NCBI RefSeq assembly: GCF_001713395.1
Contig: NZ_CP016450.1
Location: 3,316,501 to 3,380,500, forward strand
Reading direction: 5' to 3'
Origin: Sinorhizobium sp. RAC02
Lineage (GTDB): Bacteria; Pseudomonadota; Alphaproteobacteria; Rhizobiales; Rhizobiaceae
Length of the DNA: 64,000 bases
Shown here: piece after piece, positions 17,418 to 27,845 of the stretch
How the letters are laid out: the number at the start of each line of letters is the position of its first letter
Position numbering within the stretch: the first letter of the stretch is position 1
Position numbers and translations under genes: made by a program
The notes under the pieces: generated by a model
What the model was told of the DNA's origin: nothing
The model's database searches: none
Seen by the model: the letters and a program-made list of their open reading frames with translations, nothing else

Positions 17418-18203
17418 TCAGCTCCGCTTCGGCCGCGCCGGGGCATGGCTGAGGCCGCGGGCCGCTTCCTTCAGGCAATCGAGATAGCGCTCGCGATTGG
17501 CAAGCCCGTCATCGCGCGGGGCGACGAGGCAGAGCGTTGCCGCCACATGGCCCTCTTCGTCGGTGACCGGCACGGCGAAGCAATGGGTAAAGCTGTCGAC
17601 GATGCTGTTGAAAGTAAAAAGCCCGTCCCGTTCGGCCTGGCGCACCTCGGCGAGGAAGGCCTGCGGGTCGAGCCATTCGCCGCTCGGCAGGCAGAAATCC
17701 TGCGGCGGAATGAAGGTCAGGATGTCCTCGTTACTCATATGTGCCACGAGCAGCCGGCCGGACGCCGTCCACGGGATCGGCACCGACTGGCCGACATCCG
17801 TGGAGATGCGGAAGGGGCGCGCGCCTTCGCGCATACGCACGACCGTGTATTTGTTGCCGTCCAGCATGCAGAACTGCGCGGTCTCGCGCGTCTCGTCGGC
17901 CAGCCGTTCCAGCGCTGCCTCGCATTCGCGGGTGAAGTCGAAATGGTTTTCGTAAGCTGCGCCAAGGAAATAGAGCTTTCGGCCGAGATAGACGCGGCCC
18001 TCGCCGCCGGTGAATTCCAGAATGCCGTTGCGCAGCAACAGGTTCACCAGCTCATAGACGGATGAGCGCGGTGCGCCGATTTGCGCGGCGATCTCGTTGG
18101 GTTTCAGCGCCTGGCGCTTCTGGCGCAGGAAATCGAGGATCTCGAAGGCGCGGTCGAGCCCACGGGCACGTTTTCCCCCTGCATCGTCGGAAAGTGCATC
18201 CAT
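17418..18203 (-). CDS. IclR-family transcriptional regulator
   Basis: 261 residues from ATG 18203. A winged helix-turn-helix at about residues 14-75 (LKPNEIAAQIGAPRSSVYELVNLL) is followed by the IclR effector domain, with a PIPWTASGRLLVAHMSNED segment and FTHCFAVPVTDEEGHVAATL near the end. It is divergent from the ABC-importer operon with a 224-base shared promoter region holding operator A, so it most likely controls that operon in response to the imported compound or its product. The effector is unknown. An upstream start at 18329 would add a tail without family similarity. Confidence 0.92.
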   Translation of the reverse strand: MDALSDDAGGKRARGLDRAFEILDFLRQKRQALKPNEIAAQIGAPRSSVYELVNLLLRNGILEFTGGEGRVYLGRKLYFLGAAYENHFDFTRECEAALERLADETRETAQFCMLDGNKYTVVRMREGARPFRISTDVGQSVPIPWTASGRLLVAHMSNEDILTFIPPQDFCLPSGEWLDPQAFLAEVRQAERDGLFTFNSIVDSFTHCFAVPVTDEEGHVAATLCLVAPRDDGLANRERYLDCLKEAARGLSHAPARPKRS

Positions 18204-18340
18204 TCTCGTCGGTCCCTGGCTTTCGTCGACCAAGCTTCTCTCGCCGGCCGCGACATCTGTCAATCCGCACGCTCCCGCCGCGTCGCACGAAATTTCGCCA
18301 CCCCTCTTGCGGGCAGAAAAAATCAGCATAAGATCGCGCC

Positions 18341-18376
18341 GTCCAGTATTTAGATCATGTGTACATTATATTGGAC
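18341..18376. promoter_or_regulatory. operator A, imperfect dyad upstream of the ABC-importer operon
   Basis: A 36-base dyad. The outer arms GTCCAGTAT and ATATTGGAC match except for one pair, and the centre is CATGTG. A close relative (27 of 36 identical positions) lies at 27808-27843 upstream of the TIM-barrel gene; both share TTAGA-x-CATGTGT. It ends 52 bases before the binding-protein start. Probable site for the neighbouring IclR protein; this is inference. Confidence 0.65.
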
Positions 18377-18427
18377 GAAAGCGGATGGCAAGCCCGTAAC
18401 CGCTCGCCGAACAAAAAGGGGAACGCC

Positions 18428-19498
18428 ATGAAGAATTTTGAAAACCGCCCGTCCACCGCGCTGCGCAGCCGCCTTCTCGCAGGTGCCGCCGCTGCCGCGG
18501 CCCTTCTCGTCCTGTCGGCCGGCACGGCATCGGCCGCCGCCAATTGCATCAAGGGCGACCGCAAGGCGCCCTATACGGTCGGCTGGGCAAACATCTATTC
18601 CGTGCCGACCTGGATGAAGCAGACAGAAGGCACGATTGCCGCCGAAGTGGAGGAACTGAAGAAGGCCGGCCTGGTCAAGGACCTGATGATCACCGACGCG
18701 CAGGGCAATGCGCAGACGCAGATCCAGCACATCCAGTCGATGATCGACGCCAATGTTGACGCCATCGTCGTCATCGCCGGCTCGTCCAACGCGCTTGACC
18801 GTGTGATTTCGGATGCCTGCGACAAGGGCATCGCCGTCGTGAACTTCGACAGCCTCGTCAACACCGACAAGGTAACGGCAAAGATCAATACGGATTCCGC
18901 CGAATGGGGTGCGGGTGCTGCCAAGTGGCTCTCCGACCAGCTCGGCGGCAAGGGCAAGATCATCGTGATGAACGGCCCGGCCGGCATTTCTGTCAGCGAC
19001 GACCGCCGCAAGGGCGCCCAGCCGGTGCTCGAAGCCAATCCGGGTCTCGAAATCATCACCGAGACGAACACCGAATACAACGCCGCCCCCGCGCAGGAAG
19101 CCATGACCAGCCTGCTCTTCGCCAATCCGGAAATCGATGGCGTGCTGTCGCTCGGCGGAGCGATCTCTGCCGGCTCCGTCATGGCCTTCGACCGCCAGGG
19201 CCGCGAGCAGGTTCCCATTACCGGCGAGAATGCCCGCCAGTTCCTGGAACTGTGGAAGGAAAAGGGCCTGAAGGGCTGGGCGACCATGCAGCCGAACTGG
19301 CTTGGCGCATTCTCGGTCTATACGGCCGTGCAGGCGCTGGAAGGCAAGGATGTACCGGCCTTCATCAAGGTGCCGCTGCCGGTCATCGATGACAGCACGA
19401 TCGACAGCTATCTCGCTCGCGCCGACCAGTTCCCGGCCGACGGCTACATCTACTCGGATTACGACAAGGCGCTGTTCGACAAGCTGCTCGCCCAGTAG
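18428..19498 (+). CDS. sugar-type ABC transporter substrate-binding protein
   Basis: 356 residues from ATG 18428 (AGGGG site about 6 bases upstream). A signal peptide (about 1-37, ending SAGTASAA) directs it to the periplasm. The mature part is a type I periplasmic-binding fold of the ribose/RbsB class (VDAIVVIAGSSNALDRVI, GKIIVMNGPAGISVSDDRR, GVLSLGGAISAGSVMAFDR). This class binds sugars, polyols, autoinducer-2 and other small polar compounds, so the fold does not fix the ligand. It is first in the importer operon and follows operator A. Confidence 0.93.
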   Translation: MKNFENRPSTALRSRLLAGAAAAAALLVLSAGTASAAANCIKGDRKAPYTVGWANIYSVPTWMKQTEGTIAAEVEELKKAGLVKDLMITDAQGNAQTQIQHIQSMIDANVDAIVVIAGSSNALDRVISDACDKGIAVVNFDSLVNTDKVTAKINTDSAEWGAGAAKWLSDQLGGKGKIIVMNGPAGISVSDDRRKGAQPVLEANPGLEIITETNTEYNAAPAQEAMTSLLFANPEIDGVLSLGGAISAGSVMAFDRQGREQVPITGENARQFLELWKEKGLKGWATMQPNWLGAFSVYTAVQALEGKDVPAFIKVPLPVIDDSTIDSYLARADQFPADGYIYSDYDKALFDKLLAQ

Positions 19499-19518
19499 TC
19501 CGCGTGAAGGATGCCGTC

Positions 19519-21027
19519 ATGACGGATGCAAAACCCCTGCTGGAAGCCCGGCAGGTGTTCATGGGATTCTTCGGCAATCCCGTTCTGAAGGGCGTCGACA
19601 TCGCCCTTCATCCCGGCAGGGTGCACGCCCTGCTGGGGGAGAACGGAGCTGGAAAATCCACGCTGATCAATCTTCTCTCCGGTGCCCTCCAGCCGGACAG
19701 CGGCACGATTGCCGTCGACGGTCGGCCGGCCGGGCGTTTCAGCCCGGCGGCCGCCCGTGCGGCTGGCATTGCCGTGGTGCAGCAGGAACTCAGCCTCACC
19801 GCCGACCTGTCGATCGCCGAGAACATCGGGCTTGGCGCCTTCCCGCGCCGCTTTGGCCTGATCGACTATGCGGCGCTGCATCGCGGCGTGCGTGAGGTTT
19901 GCGCCATGGTGGGGCTGACCGAGCCGCTCGACATGCCGGTTGCCGATCTCGCCCTTGGCCGTCGCCAGATGGTGGAGATCGCCAAGGCGCTGTTCCGCAA
20001 GCCGCGTGTGCTCATCCTCGACGAGCCAACCTCCTCGCTTTCCGCCCATGAGGCCGGCATTCTGGCCGGCGTCATTGAGAGGCTGCGGGAGCGCGGCACC
20101 GCACTTCTCTACATTTCCCACCGCCTCAACGAGGTGCAGGCGCTCTGCGCGCATGTCACCGTGCTGAAGGACGGCGGCGTCACGGCGGACCAGTCGCTGT
20201 CGGGTATCGACGGCGAAGGGCTGGTGCGCCTGATGGTCGGCCGCGAGACGGGTGATCTCTTCCCGCCGCGCCCGGCATGCACGCCCGGCGCACTGCGCAT
20301 CGACGTCGATGGACTTTCCGCGGGCCTCGTGCGCGATATCACCTTCTCCGCCCGTGCCGGCGAAATCGTCGGAATCGGTGGGCTTGTCGGGCAGGGGCAG
20401 GAAGATCTGTTGCTGGGCCTCTACGGGGCGATCCCGGCGAGGGCCACCAGGGCGGAGGTTTCGGGCGTGCCCGCGCTGCCGGCGGATGTCGGCGCGGCGA
20501 ACGCCGCCGGCCTCGTCTATGTGCCGGCCGACCGCAAGCACGAGGGGCTGGTTCTGCCCCATTCCATTGCCTCCAACCTCATCCTGCCCTCGCTCGGCCG
20601 TCTCGCCCGCAACGGGTTTCGCGATTCGGCGGCGGAGACCGGCCTTATCGCCGACCTGGCACGCCGGCTGACCATCAAGGGCGACGTCGCTCGCCCGGTC
20701 CAGGCGCTGTCCGGCGGCAACCAGCAGAAGGTGGCGCTCGCCAAGTGGCTGCCGCTCGATCCCTCCGTGCTGCTGCTCAACGACCCGACGCGCGGCGTCG
20801 ATATCGAGACCAAGCGTGAAATCTACCTGATGCTGCGTGCCTTCGCCGCCGAAGGGCGGCTCATCATCATCGCCAGCTCCGACACGCCGGAGCTCGTACA
20901 TCTCTGTGACCGTGTCGTCGTGCTGCGCGAGGGCCATGTCGCCGCGACGCTTGTCGGTAATGCGATCAGCGAAGAGGCCATCGTCGGCGCGGCCATGGGC
21001 GTCGATAGAAAGGGAGCGGCCGCATGA
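19519..21027 (+). CDS. sugar-type ABC transporter ATP-binding protein (double ABC domain)
   Basis: 502 residues. Two fused ABC domains as in RbsA/MglA. Domain 1 has GENGAGKST, LALGRRQMVEIAKAL and LILDEPTSSLS. Domain 2 has a degenerate Walker A (GLVGQGQED) but a good signature, LSGGNQQKVALAKWL, and LLLNDPTRGVD. The ATG at 19519 has GAAGGA 7 bases upstream; a GTG at 19504 is less likely. The second domain's Walker A is weak in the whole family, so only one site probably hydrolyses ATP. Confidence 0.93.
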   Translation: MTDAKPLLEARQVFMGFFGNPVLKGVDIALHPGRVHALLGENGAGKSTLINLLSGALQPDSGTIAVDGRPAGRFSPAAARAAGIAVVQQELSLTADLSIAENIGLGAFPRRFGLIDYAALHRGVREVCAMVGLTEPLDMPVADLALGRRQMVEIAKALFRKPRVLILDEPTSSLSAHEAGILAGVIERLRERGTALLYISHRLNEVQALCAHVTVLKDGGVTADQSLSGIDGEGLVRLMVGRETGDLFPPRPACTPGALRIDVDGLSAGLVRDITFSARAGEIVGIGGLVGQGQEDLLLGLYGAIPARATRAEVSGVPALPADVGAANAAGLVYVPADRKHEGLVLPHSIASNLILPSLGRLARNGFRDSAAETGLIADLARRLTIKGDVARPVQALSGGNQQKVALAKWLPLDPSVLLLNDPTRGVDIETKREIYLMLRAFAAEGRLIIIASSDTPELVHLCDRVVVLREGHVAATLVGNAISEEAIVGAAMGVDRKGAAA

Positions 21028-21989
21028 GCGCTGTTTCGTCCTCCTTCGGGCTCTATGGCGCCATCCAGCGTCGCCGCAATCGCGGCCTTGGCGGCCTCTA
21101 CTTCGTCGTCGCCGCGTTTCTCGTGCTTTATGCGGTGCTCTTTCCGGGCCTTCTTTCGATCGGCGGCTTTTCCAAGTTCACGCAGAACTGGTTTCCGCTC
21201 GCGCTCGTCACGATGGCCCAGGCACTGCTGATGCTGAATGGCGGCATCACGCTGGCGATTGGCCCGCTTGTCAGCCTCGGCGCGGTGATCGCGGCAACCA
21301 CCATGGGCGGCGTGTTCGGCGTGCCGGGCGGCATTCTCGCCGTCGCCTTCACCGGCCTTGCCATCGGCGCCGTCATCGGCGTCATCGTGGCGCAGCTGCG
21401 CCTGCCGGCGATCATCGTCACGCTGGCCGGCTCCTTCATCATCACCGGCGTGGCACTGCTTCTCCTGCCCCGCCCTGGCGGCTTCATTCCCGGCTGGCTT
21501 TCCACCATGCTTGCCGGCCACACGCCCGTCGCCTTCCTGCTGCTCGTCCTCATCCTGGCACTCTGGAAGGTGTTTCTGGCGACGCCGCTCGGCCTCGGCA
21601 TCTATGCGGCGGGTGACAACCCGATCGGCGCCTTCCGCTCCGGTGTGCCGGTCGAGCGGGTGAAGATCGTCGCCTTCGCGCTTTCCGGCCTGCTTACCGC
21701 GCTGGCGGGGCTCTTCGTCGCCGCGCAGACCGGCTCGGGCGACCCGGTCATCGGCGCACCCTTCACACTCAACTCCATTGCCGCGGCGGTGCTCGGCGGC
21801 GTCGGCTTCCTCGGCGGCAAGGGCACGATGCGCGGGGCGATCTGCGGCAGCCTGCTGCTATCGGTGATGATCAATGTGATGTTCTTCCTCGGTTTCCCGC
21901 CGGTCGCGCAATACATCGCGCAGGGCCTCATCATCGTCGGTGCCGTCGCGGTGCCGGAACTTCTCAAGCAGTGGAGAGCCAGGCGATGA
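21024..21989 (+). CDS. ABC transporter permease (RbsC type), first of two
   Basis: 321 residues, hydrophobic with about nine predicted membrane segments. GGITLAIGPLVSLGAVIAA and NSIAAAVLGGVGFLGGKGTMRG are the BPD_transp_2 family motifs, the latter near the ATPase-coupling loop. The ATG overlaps the ATPase stop (ATGA). With the next gene it forms an asymmetric permease pair, less common than the single homodimeric RbsC. Confidence 0.92.
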   Translation: MSAVSSSFGLYGAIQRRRNRGLGGLYFVVAAFLVLYAVLFPGLLSIGGFSKFTQNWFPLALVTMAQALLMLNGGITLAIGPLVSLGAVIAATTMGGVFGVPGGILAVAFTGLAIGAVIGVIVAQLRLPAIIVTLAGSFIITGVALLLLPRPGGFIPGWLSTMLAGHTPVAFLLLVLILALWKVFLATPLGLGIYAAGDNPIGAFRSGVPVERVKIVAFALSGLLTALAGLFVAAQTGSGDPVIGAPFTLNSIAAAVLGGVGFLGGKGTMRGAICGSLLLSVMINVMFFLGFPPVAQYIAQGLIIVGAVAVPELLKQWRARR

Positions 21990-22927
21990 AGGCCGCAAAA
22001 TCCCTGTTGCGCAATCCGCCGCTGCTCACCCTCGTCCTGGTGGCGCTCGTCTGGCTGGTTGCCGGCCTTACGCTGCGCGGCTTCGGCGCCTACGGTCATC
22101 TGCGCTACCTGCTGGAACTCGCCGCGGTCATCGGCATTGCCGCCGCCGGACAGACGCTGGTCATCCTGATGGGCGGCATCGACCTTTCGGTCGGCGCGGT
22201 CATCACCGTCACGGCGATCCTCGTGCCGCTGATTTCACCCGCCTGGGATCCGACCGGTCTTGTCGGTATCGCACTTGCGCTGACGATTGCCACCGGCATC
22301 GGCGTCCTTAATGGGGCGGGCGCCGCCTATCTGCGCGTGCCGCCGATCATCATGACGCTCGCCATGGCGACGTTCCTGCAAGGTCTGCTCGTCGTCGTGG
22401 CCGGCGGCAGCGCGGTCACCGTCAGCAATCCCGCCGTGCTCCTGCTGGGGCAGGCAAGGCCGCTCGGGGTTCCGGCCGGCATCCTGCTCTGGCTCGTGGT
22501 CTCGGCCGCCGTGCTGCTCATCATCCACCGCATGCCGATCGGCGCGCGCTTCCTGGCACTCGGCGCAAACCCGCTCGCCGCCCGCCTGTCCGGCGTCAGT
22601 GTGGCGCGCAACACGCTGATCCTCTATGCGTTGTCCGGCTTTTTCGCGGGTCTCGCCGGCATTCTGGTGCTCGGCATGAACCGGCAGGGTTATGTCGGCA
22701 TCGGCGATCCCTACCTGCTGACGTCAATTGCTGCCGTCGTGCTCGGCGGCACCTCCATCCTCGGCGGGCGCGGCACCTATGCCGGCACCATTCCGGGCGC
22801 CATCCTGCTCGTGACGACCACGGCGCTGATCACGGTGGTCAACGCCTCGCCCGGCTGGCGCTCCATCATGTTCGGCACGCTGATCCTGTCGCTTCTCCTG
22901 GTTTCCGGCCGCGAGGCGCGGCGATGA
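21986..22927 (+). CDS. ABC transporter permease (RbsC type), second of two
   Basis: 313 residues from the ATG at 21986 that overlaps the previous stop (ATGA). Motifs parallel those of the first permease: GGIDLSVGAVITVTAI, NPLAARLSGVSV and SIAAVVLGGTSILGGRGTYAG. A GTG at 21971 is possible but would overlap more. Two different permeases in one importer suggest a heterodimeric channel. Confidence 0.92.
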   Translation: MKAAKSLLRNPPLLTLVLVALVWLVAGLTLRGFGAYGHLRYLLELAAVIGIAAAGQTLVILMGGIDLSVGAVITVTAILVPLISPAWDPTGLVGIALALTIATGIGVLNGAGAAYLRVPPIIMTLAMATFLQGLLVVVAGGSAVTVSNPAVLLLGQARPLGVPAGILLWLVVSAAVLLIIHRMPIGARFLALGANPLAARLSGVSVARNTLILYALSGFFAGLAGILVLGMNRQGYVGIGDPYLLTSIAAVVLGGTSILGGRGTYAGTIPGAILLVTTTALITVVNASPGWRSIMFGTLILSLLLVSGREARR

Positions 22928-23880
22928 CGGCGCGCTATGACGGGCCGGTCATCGACCCGCACCATCATCTCTGGGACTTGTCGCTGAAACGCCATCCCTG
23001 GCTGGTAAAAGCCCGGACGGCTGGCGAGGAGATGGTTTTCGGCAGCCTCGCACCGCTCCTGCGCGACTACGGCATCGCGGACTACCGTGCCGATGCCGCA
23101 AACCAGAATGTGGTCGCCACCGTACATGTCGAGGCTGGCTGGTCGGATGCCCATCCGCTGGAGGAAAGCCGTTGGCTGGATGGTCTGGACCGCAGCGCCG
23201 GCGTGGCGAGGCGCTACGTTGCGCGCGTTTCGCTCGACAGTCCTGATGCCGCGCGCCTCATCGACGCGGAAGCGGACAATCCCAACGTGGTCGGCATCCG
23301 CGACATCGTGAGCTGGCATCCTGAGCCGGCGAAGAGTTTTGCCGCGCGCGCCTACCGCATGGTCGATCCCGTCTGGCGGACCGGGTTGGCGCATGCCTCC
23401 GGGCTCGGGCTGGTCTTCGATCTCATGCTCTATCCCTGGCAGATGGTCGAGGCGCTCGACCTGGTGACCGCCTTTCCCGATACGCTCTTCGTGCTCAACC
23501 ATGGGGGAAGTCCGGCCGATCGTACGGCGGGGGGCATGGCGCTGTGGCGCAGTGGCCTTCGTGCGCTCGGCAGGCAACCGAATGTCCGCCTGAAGATTTC
23601 CGACCTCGTCGCCTACGACAATGACTGGACGCCCGGAAGCCTCGGTCCGGTGATCGAACATTGCCTCGACTGCTTCGGCCCGGAGCGGTCGATGTTTGCC
23701 AGCGATTTTCCCGTCGCCGGCCTGCACGCGTCCTTCGATGAGGTTTATGCGGTCTTCCGCGCCGCTGCTGCTCCGCTCTCCATCGATGAGCAGCGCGCCC
23801 TTTTCTTCACGACCGCCAACGATACCTACCGCCTCGGGATGAGCGATCCCGCCTTGGGCGAAGGAGAAAACCATGTCTGA
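22924..23880 (+). CDS. amidohydrolase family protein (lactonase-like, COG3618 type)
   Basis: 318 residues. VIDPHHHLWDL (His13-15) supplies the metal ligands of an amidohydrolase-2 TIM barrel; LNHGGSPAD and MFASDFPVAGL (catalytic Asp) follow in family order. Relatives hydrolyse sugar or aromatic lactones. It overlaps the permease by 4 bases and the next enzyme gene by 8, so it is co-translated with the importer. It probably opens a lactone or cleaves an amide in the imported compound's route; the exact substrate is not visible. Confidence 0.88.
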   Translation: MTARYDGPVIDPHHHLWDLSLKRHPWLVKARTAGEEMVFGSLAPLLRDYGIADYRADAANQNVVATVHVEAGWSDAHPLEESRWLDGLDRSAGVARRYVARVSLDSPDAARLIDAEADNPNVVGIRDIVSWHPEPAKSFAARAYRMVDPVWRTGLAHASGLGLVFDLMLYPWQMVEALDLVTAFPDTLFVLNHGGSPADRTAGGMALWRSGLRALGRQPNVRLKISDLVAYDNDWTPGSLGPVIEHCLDCFGPERSMFASDFPVAGLHASFDEVYAVFRAAAAPLSIDEQRALFFTTANDTYRLGMSDPALGEGENHV

Positions 23881-25186
23881 CCTGCACGCAAATGGCGCGG
23901 ACAATCCGCTGATCGACGACCGCATTCGCGGGTTCCCGCCGGGACACGCAGCCTTGCCGCTCGATGCGCTCGGAAAGCAGGGCTGGAAACCCTATGACGG
24001 CACGATGGCGCTGCCGCTGATCTCTCTCGACCGACAGGCCTTCGCCGGTAATATCGACCTGATGATGGCCTATGTGAAGGATCATGGCGTCGAGATCGCC
24101 CCGCATGCCAAAACGCCCATGTCTACGGCGATTGCCGGCGCACTGCTGGCGGTCGGCGCCTGGGGCACGACGGTTGCGGATATCCGACAGGCCGCAGTGA
24201 TGCTGAAGGCCGGCCAGCGTCGGCTGATCCTCGCCAACGAGATCGGCGGCATCGCCGCCGCGCGCCGGCTGGCCGCCCTGCTTGCCTTCTATCCCGAGGC
24301 GGAGATGCATGTCTTCGTCGATTCCGTCCCTCTTGCCACGGCCCTTAGTGCCGCTTGGCGCGAACGCAATGACCTGCCGCCGCTCGGCCTGATGGTGGAG
24401 TTGGGCATTGGCCGCGCCGGGGTGCGCGATCCGGACGCGGCGGGTGCGATTGTCGATACCATCCTTGCGGCCGAGACACCGAGTTTCCGCCTCACCGGCA
24501 TCGCCGCCTACGAGGGCGCTGCCGCGACAGCAGACGCAGATGAAACCCTGCGCCGGATCGACGGGCTGGTTGCCATGACGGCGACCTTCCTGCCCGCGGT
24601 CCGCGCCAGAATCGGCAAGAAACGGCCGCTCATCCTGACAGCGGGCGGCTCGGTATTTTTCGACCGGGTCGTCGCCGGCCTTTCGGCTGCGGTCTCGGCC
24701 GATCCCGATTGCCGCCTGGTGCTGCGCAGCGGGGCGATCTTCTTCCACGATCACGGCGTCTATGAACGCGGCCTTGCGGGCCTCGATGCGCGCGGCGGTT
24801 TCCAGTTTGGCGGTGACGTCCGCTCCGCATCAAAGGGCTTCAAGCCGGCGCTGCGCGTCTGGGCTGAGGTGCTGTCGCGGCCCGAGCCGGGGCTCGCGAT
24901 CTGTGGCATGGGCCTTCGCGACGTCGCGATCGACCAGGGCCTGCCCCGGCCGCTTGCACTTTATCGAGACAGCGCGCGCCGCGCCGATTTCACCGGTGCC
25001 GACGTGCTGCGCCTCAACGACCAGCACGCCTTCGTGACCGTGCCCGCCGGCAGCGATGTGGCCATCGGCGACGTGGTCGAGTTCGGCATTTCGCATCCCT
25101 GCACCTGCCTCGACCGGCATGCCATCCTTTACGGCCTCGACCCGGACCACACGGTCGTGACCGCCTATCTCACCAGCTTCGGCTGA
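23873..25186 (+). CDS. PLP-dependent fold-III enzyme, D-serine dehydratase/D-threonine aldolase (DSD1) family
   Basis: 437 residues. The alanine-racemase-type barrel has the PLP lysine in APHAKT (Lys80), and the C-terminal beta domain holds ISHPCTCLDRH (His408, Cys410), the zinc-binding pair of DSD1-type D-serine dehydratases. The family acts on D-3-hydroxy amino acids (D-serine, D-threonine, D-hydroxyaspartate) by dehydration or aldol cleavage. The PLP fold, zinc motif and adjacent RidA make a dehydratase reaction plausible. The first 40 residues are less conserved. Substrate unproven. Confidence 0.86.
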   Translation: MSDLHANGADNPLIDDRIRGFPPGHAALPLDALGKQGWKPYDGTMALPLISLDRQAFAGNIDLMMAYVKDHGVEIAPHAKTPMSTAIAGALLAVGAWGTTVADIRQAAVMLKAGQRRLILANEIGGIAAARRLAALLAFYPEAEMHVFVDSVPLATALSAAWRERNDLPPLGLMVELGIGRAGVRDPDAAGAIVDTILAAETPSFRLTGIAAYEGAAATADADETLRRIDGLVAMTATFLPAVRARIGKKRPLILTAGGSVFFDRVVAGLSAAVSADPDCRLVLRSGAIFFHDHGVYERGLAGLDARGGFQFGGDVRSASKGFKPALRVWAEVLSRPEPGLAICGMGLRDVAIDQGLPRPLALYRDSARRADFTGADVLRLNDQHAFVTVPAGSDVAIGDVVEFGISHPCTCLDRHAILYGLDPDHTVVTAYLTSFG

Positions 25187-25222
25187 ACGTCTCCTCCCAA
25201 GGCAAAAAAAGGAAAACACGCC

Positions 25223-25567
25223 ATGATCCAGCGCTATCAGAAGGGCTCGCGCATGAGCCAGGCCGTCAGCTTCGGCGGGCTCGTTTATATTGCCGGCCAG
25301 GTCGCGGAAGACCGCAAGGCCGCCATCGAGGACCAGACGCGCGACGTGCTCGGCAAGATCGACACCCTTCTGAAGGAGGCCGGCACGGATCGCTCGAAAC
25401 TGCTCGCCGTCAATGTCTTCCTGCCGGCGATTGTCGATTTCGAGGCCATGAACGGCGTCTACGATGCCTGGATCGACCCGGCAAACCCGCCGGCCCGCGC
25501 CTGTGTCGAGGCGCGCCTTGCCGATCCGGACCTGCGCGTCGAAATGACCGCCGTCGCGGCGCTTTGA
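25223..25567 (+). CDS. RidA family protein (enamine/imine deaminase type)
   Basis: 114 residues, the usual RidA length, reading GGLVYIAGQVAED and ending in RACVEARLADPDLRVEMTAVAAL, where the conserved Arg and Glu of the family sit. RidA proteins form trimers and hydrolyse reactive 2-aminoacrylate-type enamines released by PLP-dependent dehydratases. Its place directly after the DSD1-type gene fits that job. 36 bases separate the genes. Confidence 0.9.
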   Translation: MIQRYQKGSRMSQAVSFGGLVYIAGQVAEDRKAAIEDQTRDVLGKIDTLLKEAGTDRSKLLAVNVFLPAIVDFEAMNGVYDAWIDPANPPARACVEARLADPDLRVEMTAVAAL

Positions 25568-25577
25568 GAGGCGCATC

Positions 25578-26591
25578 ATGCACAGCGGCCTCGTCAATCC
25601 GATCGATTTTACGCTGGAAGGCCGGCAGTCCGGCCATCTCGCCATCCCCTATTCGATCGACCGTTCGCCCTATTATCAGATCCGTGTCCCGATCCTGCGC
25701 CTCAGCAACGGCGAGGGGCCGAGCCTGCTCCTGATGGCCGGCAACCATGGCGACGAATATGAAGGCGAACTCCAGCTCGGGCGGCTGATGCGCCTGCTCG
25801 ACGTCGACAGGATTCGCGGCTCCGTCACCATCCTGCCGATGGCGAACCTGCCGGCGGTGATGGCGGCGAAGCGCTGCTCGCCGTTCGACGGCGGCAATCT
25901 CAACCGCGCCTTTCCGGGCGATGCGACGGGTACGCCGACGGCGCGGATGGCGCATTTCCTCGAACACACGCTTTTTCCCCTGCATGACGTGGTGCTCGAT
26001 CTGCATTCGGGCGGCACCTCCATGGCGCATCTGCCCTGTACGCTGATCGAGCGGCAGGCGGATGCCGCGCGCTTCGCCCGCGCCGTCTCGCTGATGCGGG
26101 CCATGGGCGCCGCGCATGCCTTCATCGCCGACAACGGGCCGGCGGCACCGACCTCGATGGGGGCGGCGGGCCGGGCCGGGGCGATCGGCCTTTCGGGCGA
26201 GTTCGGCGGTGGGGGAACGGTGACGCCGGAGACGATGGCGTTCACGGCCGGAGCGATCGATCGTTTGCTCGTGGCGCTCGGCCTCGTCGAGGCTCCGGTG
26301 CTTTCGGGCGCATCGCTGCCTGCGCCACCGGCTCTGCAGCTACTCTCTTTGTCGCGGCACAGCCAGGGTATCTATGCCAGCCGACGCGGCTGGTTCGAGC
26401 CGGCCGCGGCACTCGGAACGCGTGTTGCGGCCGGCGATCGTGCCGGCTGGTATCACGACCTCGAACGGCTGGAGCAGCCCGAGGAGGAGCTGCGCTTTGC
26501 CGAGGGTGGCATCGTCATCTCCCATCGCCTGCATTGCGACAGCCAGGCCGGCGATTGCCTGATCCAGGTCGCCGAGCCGATCGACGGGTGA
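25578..26591 (+). CDS. succinylglutamate desuccinylase/aspartoacylase family deacylase (DoeB-like)
   Basis: 337 residues. Zinc-peptidase motifs GNHGDEYEGE (His57, Glu60), NLNRAFPG (107-114) and DLHSGG (His143), then a C-terminal beta domain. The layout resembles DoeB, which deacetylates N-acetyl-diaminobutyrate in ectoine breakdown, but no ectoine genes are present. It probably removes an acyl group from an amino compound. It is last in the importer operon and converges with the TIM-barrel gene, stop to stop across 11 bases. Confidence 0.87.
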   Translation: MHSGLVNPIDFTLEGRQSGHLAIPYSIDRSPYYQIRVPILRLSNGEGPSLLLMAGNHGDEYEGELQLGRLMRLLDVDRIRGSVTILPMANLPAVMAAKRCSPFDGGNLNRAFPGDATGTPTARMAHFLEHTLFPLHDVVLDLHSGGTSMAHLPCTLIERQADAARFARAVSLMRAMGAAHAFIADNGPAAPTSMGAAGRAGAIGLSGEFGGGGTVTPETMAFTAGAIDRLLVALGLVEAPVLSGASLPAPPALQLLSLSRHSQGIYASRRGWFEPAAALGTRVAAGDRAGWYHDLERLEQPEEELRFAEGGIVISHRLHCDSQAGDCLIQVAEPIDG

Positions 26592-26602
26592 GGATGATCA
26601 TC

Positions 26603-27787
26603 TCAGGTGATCGCGTCGACGGCCTCGCGTACCCAGTCGAGGCGTTTTGCCGGAATGAGGCCGTAGTTGTAGAAGTTCACGCCATCGGCGCCGGCTTCGA
26701 CGGCGGCCTTGGCGCGCGCGGTGAGGATCGCCGGACCGTCGACTTCGGGATAGAAGACGCGCAGGCCCAACCCTAAAAACTTTTCCGGGCCGAGCAGGGC
26801 GCGGCCGGTGTGCATGACATCGGCGATGGCCTCGGGCGTCATGTCGTAGCAGCAGAGGATCGCGCCGTCGCAGAGTTTTCCGACGGCCGCGAGATCGACC
26901 CCACCGAGCCAGCCGTCCTTGAGATCGATCAGCACGATGCGCGTCGCCGGGTCGGCGGCGGCCTTGATCTCGCCGATCAGGCTCGTCACCGGTTCGGAGC
27001 GCCAGATCAGGAAGGCGTGCAGTTCCGGGTGGGCGCGGAAGGCGTCGATACCGGCCGCGGGGAAATCGGGAAACTGTTTTTCCGGCACGGCCCGCTCGCA
27101 CAGTTCGGCAATGAAGCGGGCGACCGTCTTTCGGGCGCCCTCCACCGGGACACCGGCTTTTTCGGCGCGCGCGGTGCAATGGTCGCAGAAGCACAGCGAC
27201 AGCAAAAAGTCGTCCTCGGCGGTGAGGCCGACGCCGTCCTTTTCATGGTGGTATTCATGCGCGAAGCCCATGAAGTTCGGGCTTTCCAGCTCCAGCATGT
27301 CGGGCTGGTAGTTCGTCGTGATGTCGCGGACGAGGGTCACGACATAGTCGCGGGCTGCCGGGCTCGACGGGCAGAGATTGTAGTAGTTGGCGTTGCCATA
27401 GGCATTTCGGGTGACGTGGTCCGGGTGCAGCATGCCGAGCCGGCTGTTGTGCAGGCAGACGGTCCAGCAGGAGACCTTGAGGCCGGTCGTTTCGCGTGCC
27501 TTCGTCAGTGCGTCGAGCATGTCGCCGCGATCGAGAACGTTCTGCGCCACCAGCGGGCGGATCACCTTGTCCTGCCAGAGCGTGTCATCCGGGCGGAAAT
27601 AGACGGTGCCGTCTTCCGGGAAATAGGCCTTCTGGCTCGGGCTGCGCGGCTGCAGGAAGCGGCCTGCATGGTAGGAGGTCGCAACGCTCACGGTGTTGAG
27701 GCCGGCCCGGCCGGCAAGATCGGCGGCAAGCGCCTCGAGCCCCTGGTCCTGGATGTCCCAGGGATAGGTCCACATAGAAAGATGCAT
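26603..27787 (-). CDS. TIM-barrel glycoside-hydrolase-like protein, function unknown
   Basis: 394 residues from ATG 27787 (GGGAG site upstream). No signal peptide. Features include a SVATSYHAGRFL segment, MLELESPNF (Glu166, Glu168 as possible acid residues) and LCFCDHC (Cys199, Cys201, Cys204), then a long alpha/beta pattern. The Cys cluster after an acidic strand recalls glycoside-hydrolase-like proteins of unassigned activity. It shares the operator of the importer operon, so it probably acts on the same compound. I cannot name the reaction. Confidence 0.75.
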   Translation of the reverse strand: MHLSMWTYPWDIQDQGLEALAADLAGRAGLNTVSVATSYHAGRFLQPRSPSQKAYFPEDGTVYFRPDDTLWQDKVIRPLVAQNVLDRGDMLDALTKARETTGLKVSCWTVCLHNSRLGMLHPDHVTRNAYGNANYYNLCPSSPAARDYVVTLVRDITTNYQPDMLELESPNFMGFAHEYHHEKDGVGLTAEDDFLLSLCFCDHCTARAEKAGVPVEGARKTVARFIAELCERAVPEKQFPDFPAAGIDAFRAHPELHAFLIWRSEPVTSLIGEIKAAADPATRIVLIDLKDGWLGGVDLAAVGKLCDGAILCCYDMTPEAIADVMHTGRALLGPEKFLGLGLRVFYPEVDGPAILTARAKAAVEAGADGVNFYNYGLIPAKRLDWVREAVDAIT

Positions 27788-27807
27788 GGCGTGCTCCCGT
27801 TGCGCTT

Positions 27808-27845
27808 GTCCGGTACTTAGAACATGTGTCCATAATAGTGTCCAG
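27808..27845. promoter_or_regulatory. operator B, related to operator A
   Basis: It lies 20 bases upstream of the TIM-barrel start codon. It matches operator A at 27 of 36 positions, including GTCC at the edge, GTA, TTAGA and CATGTGT. Only the inner part is palindromic (GAACA-TG-TGTCC). The position suits repression of the minus-strand gene. Confidence 0.6.

Follow-up and report, generated by a model that had tools for sequence, protein, structure and literature searches.

In the genome of Sinorhizobium sp. RAC02, a stretch of 64,000 nucleotides (contig NZ_CP016450.1, positions 3,316,501 to 3,380,500, forward strand; hereafter the window) holds a block of ten genes, of a kind met in soil- and root-dwelling bacteria, in which a sugar-type importer stands together with a regulator, a set of catabolic enzymes and a barrel protein of an uncharacterised family, and which probably imports a sugar-like compound that is degraded via deacylation and a vitamin-B6 enzyme. 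On the minus strand lies the gene for an IclR-type regulator (17418–18203), whose HTH_IclR (PF09339, 49.8 bits against a cut-off of 22) and IclR_C (PF01614, 61.6 against 24) domains place it in the IclR family, with no NCBIfam equivalog reached; its frame is open to 18329 on that strand, and the start is probably at 18203, as suggested by an annotated orthologue of 786 bp. The plus strand then encodes a substrate-binding protein (SBP; 18428–19498; PF13407, 175.7 bits against 35.1), a tandem sugar-type ATP-binding cassette (ABC) ATPase (19519–21027 from an ATG, with an alternative GTG at 19504; two stretches of PF00005) and two permeases (21024–21989 and 21986–22927, the latter with an alternative GTG at 21971; PF02653, 97.5 and 105.2 bits against 26.8). 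With Peripla_BP_4, both ATPase domains and both BPD_transp_2 domains above their cut-offs, these make up an importer of the CUT2 class, which serves mostly for sugars. The SBP has 2ioy as its best solved relative (E 6.2e-26) and reaches the cut-off of none of the NCBIfam models listed. The enzymes that follow on the same strand are a lactonase-like amidohydrolase of PF04909 (22924–23880; 118.4 bits against 26.4), a DSD1-type pyridoxal phosphate (PLP)/metal enzyme (23873–25186; PF14031, 66.6 against 22; PF01168, 45.1 against 24.1), a RidA-family protein (25223–25567; PF01042, 91.3 against 27.3; TIGR00004, 68.1 of the 106.25 needed) and a DoeB-like deacylase of the AstE/AspA family (25578–26591; PF24827, 154.9 against 25). 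An earlier note, made from the letters of this DNA alone, had described the co-directional run 18428–26591, its overlaps, its 36- and 10-base gaps and the fold classes of its products, and on each count it was right: the frames lie at those positions, the overlaps and gaps are as described, and all nine proteins exceed a Pfam cut-off, while none of them reaches a curated single-function model among the NCBIfam models listed. The gene run is confirmed as real and as more than a chance assembly.

The gene set of that note, sound as far as it went, was incomplete, in that the convergent gene at 26603–27787 on the minus strand was not described there and is part of the system. Its product of 394 amino acids, called hypTIM here, is an uncharacterised glycoside-hydrolase-like barrel protein, a designation drawn from a structure model, its fold matches and the co-occurrence given below; at E 0.001 no family in NCBIfam or Pfam matches it, and none of six members of its family that were scanned reaches a Pfam model at the cut-off. 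The predicted model (pLDDT 92.8, pTM 0.92) folds nearest to PgaB, GH42 and Cwp19, and the comparison with Cwp19 and PgaB bears out the barrel fold. The fold matches listed are mostly glycoside hydrolases, from which hypTIM stands well apart (12–15% identity to GHL10/PgaB and GH42, at a Foldseek TM-score of about 0.5–0.6). On the strength of the model, hypTIM may hydrolyse glycosides. Among 7999 candidates scored, its relatives number at least 2717 at E 0.001. Of the 80 best among 254 confirmed stretches, the closest named one comes from Shinella kummerowiae (96%), so that the source of the window is itself probably a Shinella.

hypTIM is the tenth gene of the block, tied to it by co-occurrence over 80 loci, by a sample of 121 genomes, by shared orientation and by an operator. 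The 80 loci were found via hypTIM itself and are the best 80 of the 254 confirmed stretches; in 61 of them the PLP enzyme is at least 53% identical to that of the window, a fraction that leans to close relatives since only the best were kept, a bias that the 121-genome sample does not share. Under identity thresholds chosen by the analyst, and counted from genome records with titles, nine genes (hypTIM, the PLP enzyme, the PF04909 protein, the deacylase, RidA, the SBP, the ATPase and the two permeases, with iclR and gene order ignored) are all present in 58/80 loci. The other sample comprised 121 genomes drawn evenly from the family, with cut-offs of 1e-130 and 1e-100 chosen beforehand by the analyst; the PLP enzyme was found in 11 of these, hypTIM in 15 and both in 10 (Fisher's exact p 2.5e-10, and 1.8e-9 without the window's own genome). 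The gene for hypTIM is co-oriented with the PLP gene in 21 of the 61 loci. A search for the same gene set in other rhizobia had been put forward in the earlier note as a check, and its outcome is positive: Rhizobium plasmids are annotated with an identical row of genes, and the 58 loci hold the nine genes counted. All ten genes lie on plasmid pRL10 of Rhizobium johnstonii strain 3841, which, according to PMC3333776, carries most of the nodulation and nitrogen-fixation genes of that strain. On a plasmid of Rhizobium leguminosarum Vaf10 (L003, 13700–16130), the deacylase gene is present and unannotated (a 78% match from 13828), and the gene of an ISNCY transposase lies directly behind it.

The region between iclR and the SBP gene holds a promoter-like conserved stretch ahead of the importer operon, CTCTTGC...CATAAGAT (18304–18334, plus strand; from an alignment, with the consensus drawn by eye), followed by a 36-bp palindrome, proposed IclR operator 1 (18341–18376). 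In the alignment, made from 15 regions hand-picked out of 63, these intergenic regions keep both the promoter-like stretch and the palindrome, of the form GTCC..TAT, 18 bases, ATA..GGAC. A similar palindrome-like site of 36 bp, proposed operator 2 (27808–27843), stands 20 bases ahead of the hypTIM start. To judge by position, the palindromes would be bound by this IclR protein. A weight matrix was built from 52 unique sites ahead of SBP genes, with both orientations included and the window's own site excluded; along the plus strand of the window it gives 51.2 at position 18341, 23.7 at 27808 and −13.1 at the third best, and an equivalent matrix gave maxima between −15.4 and −3.5 in 20 mononucleotide shuffles, which preserve base counts only. 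With a threshold score above 10, set after a gap between 15.8 and −12.2 had been seen, such a site is found ahead of hypTIM in 36 of the 40 loci where hypTIM opposes the PLP gene, in 0/21 where the two are co-oriented and in 0/19 that lack the focal PLP enzyme. A degenerate pattern allowing up to three mismatches has two matches in the 6.6-Mb genome, both of them the window sites (the backwards control has none); as it was written from these very sites, it shows that there is no third similar site rather than predicting the two, and independent support for the pair comes from the matrix, which was trained on SBP sites and also finds 27808. With two sites here and no others in the genome, the ten genes look like a closed regulon. 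This bears on the plainest explanation of the locus, an ordinary sugar importer operon to which housekeeping enzymes are loosely attached. Each of the enzyme families is indeed broad, and the functions proposed here are putative assignments by family. Set against this are the nine genes that stand together in 58/80 loci, the unselected sample in which 10/11 genomes with the PLP enzyme carry hypTIM, and the two operator-like sites that cover all ten genes, so that such a loose attachment appears very improbable.

The enzymes themselves sit at some distance from proteins of assigned function. The PF04909 protein scores 95.4 bits with the L-fucono-1,5-lactonase model NF052480, well under its cut-off of 400, and has the group of PDB 4dlf and 4dnm as its nearest solved relatives (E 1.4e-17); it is a putative lactonase, and its gene is inverted in Mesorhizobium loci. 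The PLP enzyme resembles the D-serine dehydratase/D-threonine aldolase family in its combination of an Ala-racemase-like PLP domain with a D-ser_dehydrat domain, and its best solved match is 3gwq, annotated as D-serine deaminase (E 1.3e-56); with the model for BhcC (3-hydroxy-D-aspartate aldolase; NF045642) it reaches 80.8 bits of the 690 required. Its metal motif is His-x-Cys, as in serine dehydratase, where the AxDTA D-threonine aldolase has His-x-Asp according to PMC4401734. As a dehydratase marker the motif was dropped: it is present in 34/34 aligned rows, outgroup included, and alone it cannot separate dehydratases from aldolases. In a tree of those 34 rows (the window's enzyme and 33 hand-picked out of 124 hits), the window enzyme falls into a clade (support 96/91) with enzymes from clusters that carry polar amino-acid importers. 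No relative of it was found in a phage collection. From its family, the enzyme is proposed to be a 2-amino-aldonate (D-beta-hydroxy amino acid) dehydratase/deaminase. A metal- and PLP-dependent D-glucosaminate dehydratase is said to have been described long ago from soil bacteria, a phrase not met in the papers listed by one literature search. The deacylase gives 195 bits with the model of DoeB (N2-acetyl-diaminobutanoate deacetylase; TIGR02994), whose cut-off is 402.7; its nearest solved relative is 3cdx (E 2.7e-53), and DoeB itself (6twm) matches at E 4.1e-44.

Seen together, the CUT2 class of the importer, the lactonase relatives and the barrel fold point to a sugar, and the deacylase, the PLP enzyme and RidA to an N-acylated D-alpha-amino-beta-hydroxy acid; both descriptions fit a 2-acylamino-2-deoxy-aldonic acid. 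Thus, the reading that we tentatively favour takes the block as a self-contained unit for an N-acylated 2-amino-2-deoxy-aldonic acid (e.g., N-acetylglucosaminate or an epimer), which would be taken up as the acid, the lactone or a small glycoside. From what was computed, namely which genes make up the set and how they are conserved, the likeness of the two palindromes, the family assignments and the barrel fold of hypTIM, we infer the substrates and the order of the reactions. In the presence of the compound the IclR protein would leave both sites, the CUT2 importer would take the compound up, hypTIM would open a glycosidic or similar bond, and the PF04909 protein would open the lactone. The DoeB-like enzyme would then remove the acyl group (beside a D-aminoacylase in some relatives), the DSD1-type enzyme, from a family whose substrates are D-alpha-amino acids carrying a beta-hydroxyl, would eliminate water and release ammonia, and RidA would hydrolyse the enamine or imine; the resulting 2-keto-3-deoxy sugar acid would be completed by enzymes encoded elsewhere. 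In the genome at large, Eda is found above its cut-off. The earlier note had suggested the uptake of an N-acylated or lactone-containing D-amino compound, its deacylation, PLP-dependent elimination and RidA clean-up; this sequence of steps agrees with the families and with related loci, 7/61 of which carry a D-aminoacylase, and what has to be revised is the substrate, for hypTIM with its shared operator, the CUT2 importer and the lactonase-like gene jointly indicate one derived from a sugar.

A number of findings weigh against this favoured reading. No kinase gene is found among the ten genes, and the block is likewise without an aldolase or a dehydrogenase; the KdgK-like match in the genome has 266.7 bits for a cut-off of 400, and the same gene was dropped as support because the search was positive in 14/14 control genomes. 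Among relatives of the focal block, the search for a kinase or aldolase of 2-keto-3-deoxy sugars gave only kinase matches of 24–25% in four loci (L066, L073, L077, L082). The genome has no LPMO_10 gene, so that an oxidative attack of its own on chitin is not supported, and the pattern found no third operator site in its 6.6 Mb. No match to PF04909 was found in L040, although the focal block is there. As for hypTIM, the GHL10 model PF02638 (cut-off 27.9) gives 13.5 for the window's protein and 25.6 for that of L121 and stays below its cut-off in 6/6 proteins scanned, and no acid at strand 7 is invariant in a structure alignment of 43 hand-picked sequences. The closest relatives of the focal PLP enzyme stand beside polar amino-acid importers, two of them (L032, L033) nesting among the focal enzymes, and OngC, the deaminase of the ong pathway taken up below, falls into the sister clade. 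The D-aminoacylase of the relatives scores 297 and 291 bits to true D-aminoacylases versus 241 to PpOngB, and is 31–33% identical to the OngB-like protein of L036 (a true ong cluster, as judged by eye).

The neighbourhood of these nearest PLP relatives keeps a non-sugar version alive, which is the main rival, near to that of the earlier note, and which we regard as possible if on the unlikely side. Here the substrate would be a non-sugar N-acylated beta-hydroxy D-amino acid (of the D-serine, D-threonine or D-3-hydroxyaspartate type), or else a conjugate of such an acid, which hypTIM and the PF04909 protein would free, the DoeB-like enzyme deacylate, and the PLP enzyme with RidA deaminate. The clusters that speak for it (L031 of Agrobacterium fabrum, L033 of Ponticoccus, and further L045–L049) combine a PLP enzyme of the same clade, 46–54% identical in A. 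fabrum and Ponticoccus, with RidA (divergent in L031 and L033) and a DoeB-like deacylase of the same family; they differ from the block in that their ABC importer is of the polar amino-acid type and that L031 and L033 are annotated with a LacI-type regulator, and neither a PF04909 gene nor hypTIM was found in them. Further, in L101, L104 and L119 an amino-acid-importer unit that has a PLP enzyme and a deacylase of its own comes after the importer, the PF04909 gene and hypTIM, as if the two enzyme units were exchangeable. The D-aminoacylase of the relatives is Dam-like rather than OngB-like, and OngC accepts D-serine and D-threonine (PMC9537276). A regulon that unites a CUT2 importer with a lactonase-like gene and a glycoside-hydrolase-like barrel, on the other hand, suits a substrate with a sugar part. 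A gene for a metallopeptidase of the M81 family (MlrC-like) lies close to the block both in L033 (9144–10628) and in L040 (492–1973), two loci that otherwise differ; the two proteins are 53% identical.

Other companions of hypTIM could point to yet another substrate, some nitrogen-bearing sugar-like compound such as an aminocyclitol, an opine-like compound or a sugar-lactam conjugate, of which the DSD1-type enzyme would handle a minor amino-acid piece. In 12/80 loci hypTIM precedes a second CUT2 importer, a phosphotriesterase (PTE)-type protein, a creatininase-family protein and an FGGY kinase, nine of these loci being without the focal PLP enzyme and three (L111, L115, L120) having the focal block; in the locus from phaseoli (L004), Gfo/Idh and isomerase genes adjoin. 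This module is absent from the other 68/80 loci, and the neighbours in L004 are unlike those in L038, which leaves such a compound improbable. A GntR-like regulator also belongs to the module (L095, L097, L102, L103, L106, L107, L110, L113, L116, and further L111, L115, L120 and L040), and in L040 the PTE-type and creatininase-type genes accompany the focal block. Far relatives of hypTIM keep varied company. In L050 and L150 they are near a D-aminoacylase, a DSD1-type enzyme and a MurR regulator, with L150 also carrying a short-chain dehydrogenase/reductase and relatives of the annotated Klebsiella DgoK (2-dehydro-3-deoxygalactonokinase, 36%) and of its aldolase (47%); this company speaks for the favoured aldonate reading. 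In L147, L148, L149 and L050 a NitT/TauT-type importer, Gfo/Idh oxidoreductases and a MurR regulator are at hand, several of the names being given by eye, and L147 has in addition an amidase and an amidohydrolase above the PRK09237 cut-off. In L118, hypTIM, a D-aminoacylase, RidA and a CUT1-like importer stand with a D-threonine aldolase-type PLP enzyme instead of a DSD1-type one.

If the favoured reading is true, oxidised amino sugars left by chitin-attacking microbes are food for root-nodule bacteria, and the enzymes concerned are now recorded as alanine racemase, deacylase and hypothetical protein. If the main rival holds instead, a testable role still falls to ten pRL10 genes of the well-used strain 3841. 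Of all the parts, the barrel family most deserves specialist attention; the operator pair links it with a single defined block and thereby opens a direct way to its function. A wider and more doubtful proposition is that rhizobia and their kin degrade oxidised amino sugars by a second, separately assembled route. In such a CUT2 block under IclR control, a cytoplasmic hydrolase of the hypTIM family would free N-acyl-amino-aldonates from small glycosides, after which a lactonase, a deacylase of the AstE/AspA type and a DSD1-type dehydratase from a clade of its own would act.

The known system against which such a route has to be measured is the ong cluster of Pseudoalteromonas prydzensis for oxidative chitin utilisation (PMC9537276). 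In that work, GlcNAc1A is deacetylated by OngB; 2-keto-3-deoxygluconate and ammonia arise from glucosaminate through OngC, which has D-serine and D-threonine as further substrates, and not through OngD; and deletion of kdgK, ongB, ongC or ongD (the RidA gene) abolishes growth on GlcNAc1A. This compound has its lactone and its open acid in equilibrium, as PMC12017989 states, which would give a lactonase a task. Within the library covered, literature searches on this set of genes, its chemistry or the module with kinase and creatininase returned ong papers and none on this set; functional data on the block of strain 3841 were looked for under guessed old locus tags, with the gmcA paper as the sole result, and the passages available from a rhizosphere transcriptome paper contain nothing on the block. 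The earlier note knew of no described pathway with this set, which agrees with these searches as to the set and not as to its logic, for the succession of deacetylase, PLP deaminase and RidA is already described for ong, which gives the chemistry of the block a precedent.

By the features that define ong, the RidA-family protein is present in the block (PF01042, 91.3 bits), the deacylase belongs to PF24827 and not to the family of OngB, the PLP enzyme to a clade (96/91) that is sister to that of OngC, and a CUT2 importer is found where ong has a 2-keto-3-deoxygluconate kinase and a sodium:solute symporter (SSS) in the cluster. Membership in the ong pathway was therefore dropped, and the block is not filed there, even though it would work like ong. 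What a true ong cluster looks like may be seen by eye in L036, with a TonB-type receptor, a PLP enzyme that sits in the sister clade and pairs with a Klebsiella enzyme (100/99), MurR, a D-aminoacylase, RidA, an SSS transporter, a kinase (265.2 bits to the KdgK model) and a hexosaminidase. The Klebsiella pneumoniae plasmid pKLP00155_3 (L037) has, as annotated, a D-aminoacylase, RidA, an amino acid deaminase, a sodium:solute symporter and 2-dehydro-3-deoxygalactonokinase and -aldolase, and is possibly the Klebsiella ong cluster mentioned in PMC9537276 or a galactosaminate version of it. The likeness of the block to ong lies in the clustering of an N-deacylase, a fold-type III PLP deaminase and RidA and, with the favoured substrate, in the degradation of a sugar acid without prior phosphorylation. 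The difference lies in the parts: ong has an SSS transporter, TonB receptors, the D-aminoacylase-type OngB, a MurR/RpiR regulator, KdgK and GH20, and the block has instead a CUT2 importer, an AstE/AspA-type deacylase, IclR, a PF04909 hydrolase, hypTIM and no kinase. Thus, the block is a new assembly on a known, ong-like logic, made of different parts that include one little-studied protein family, and enlarged here by a tenth gene and a regulon of two sites.

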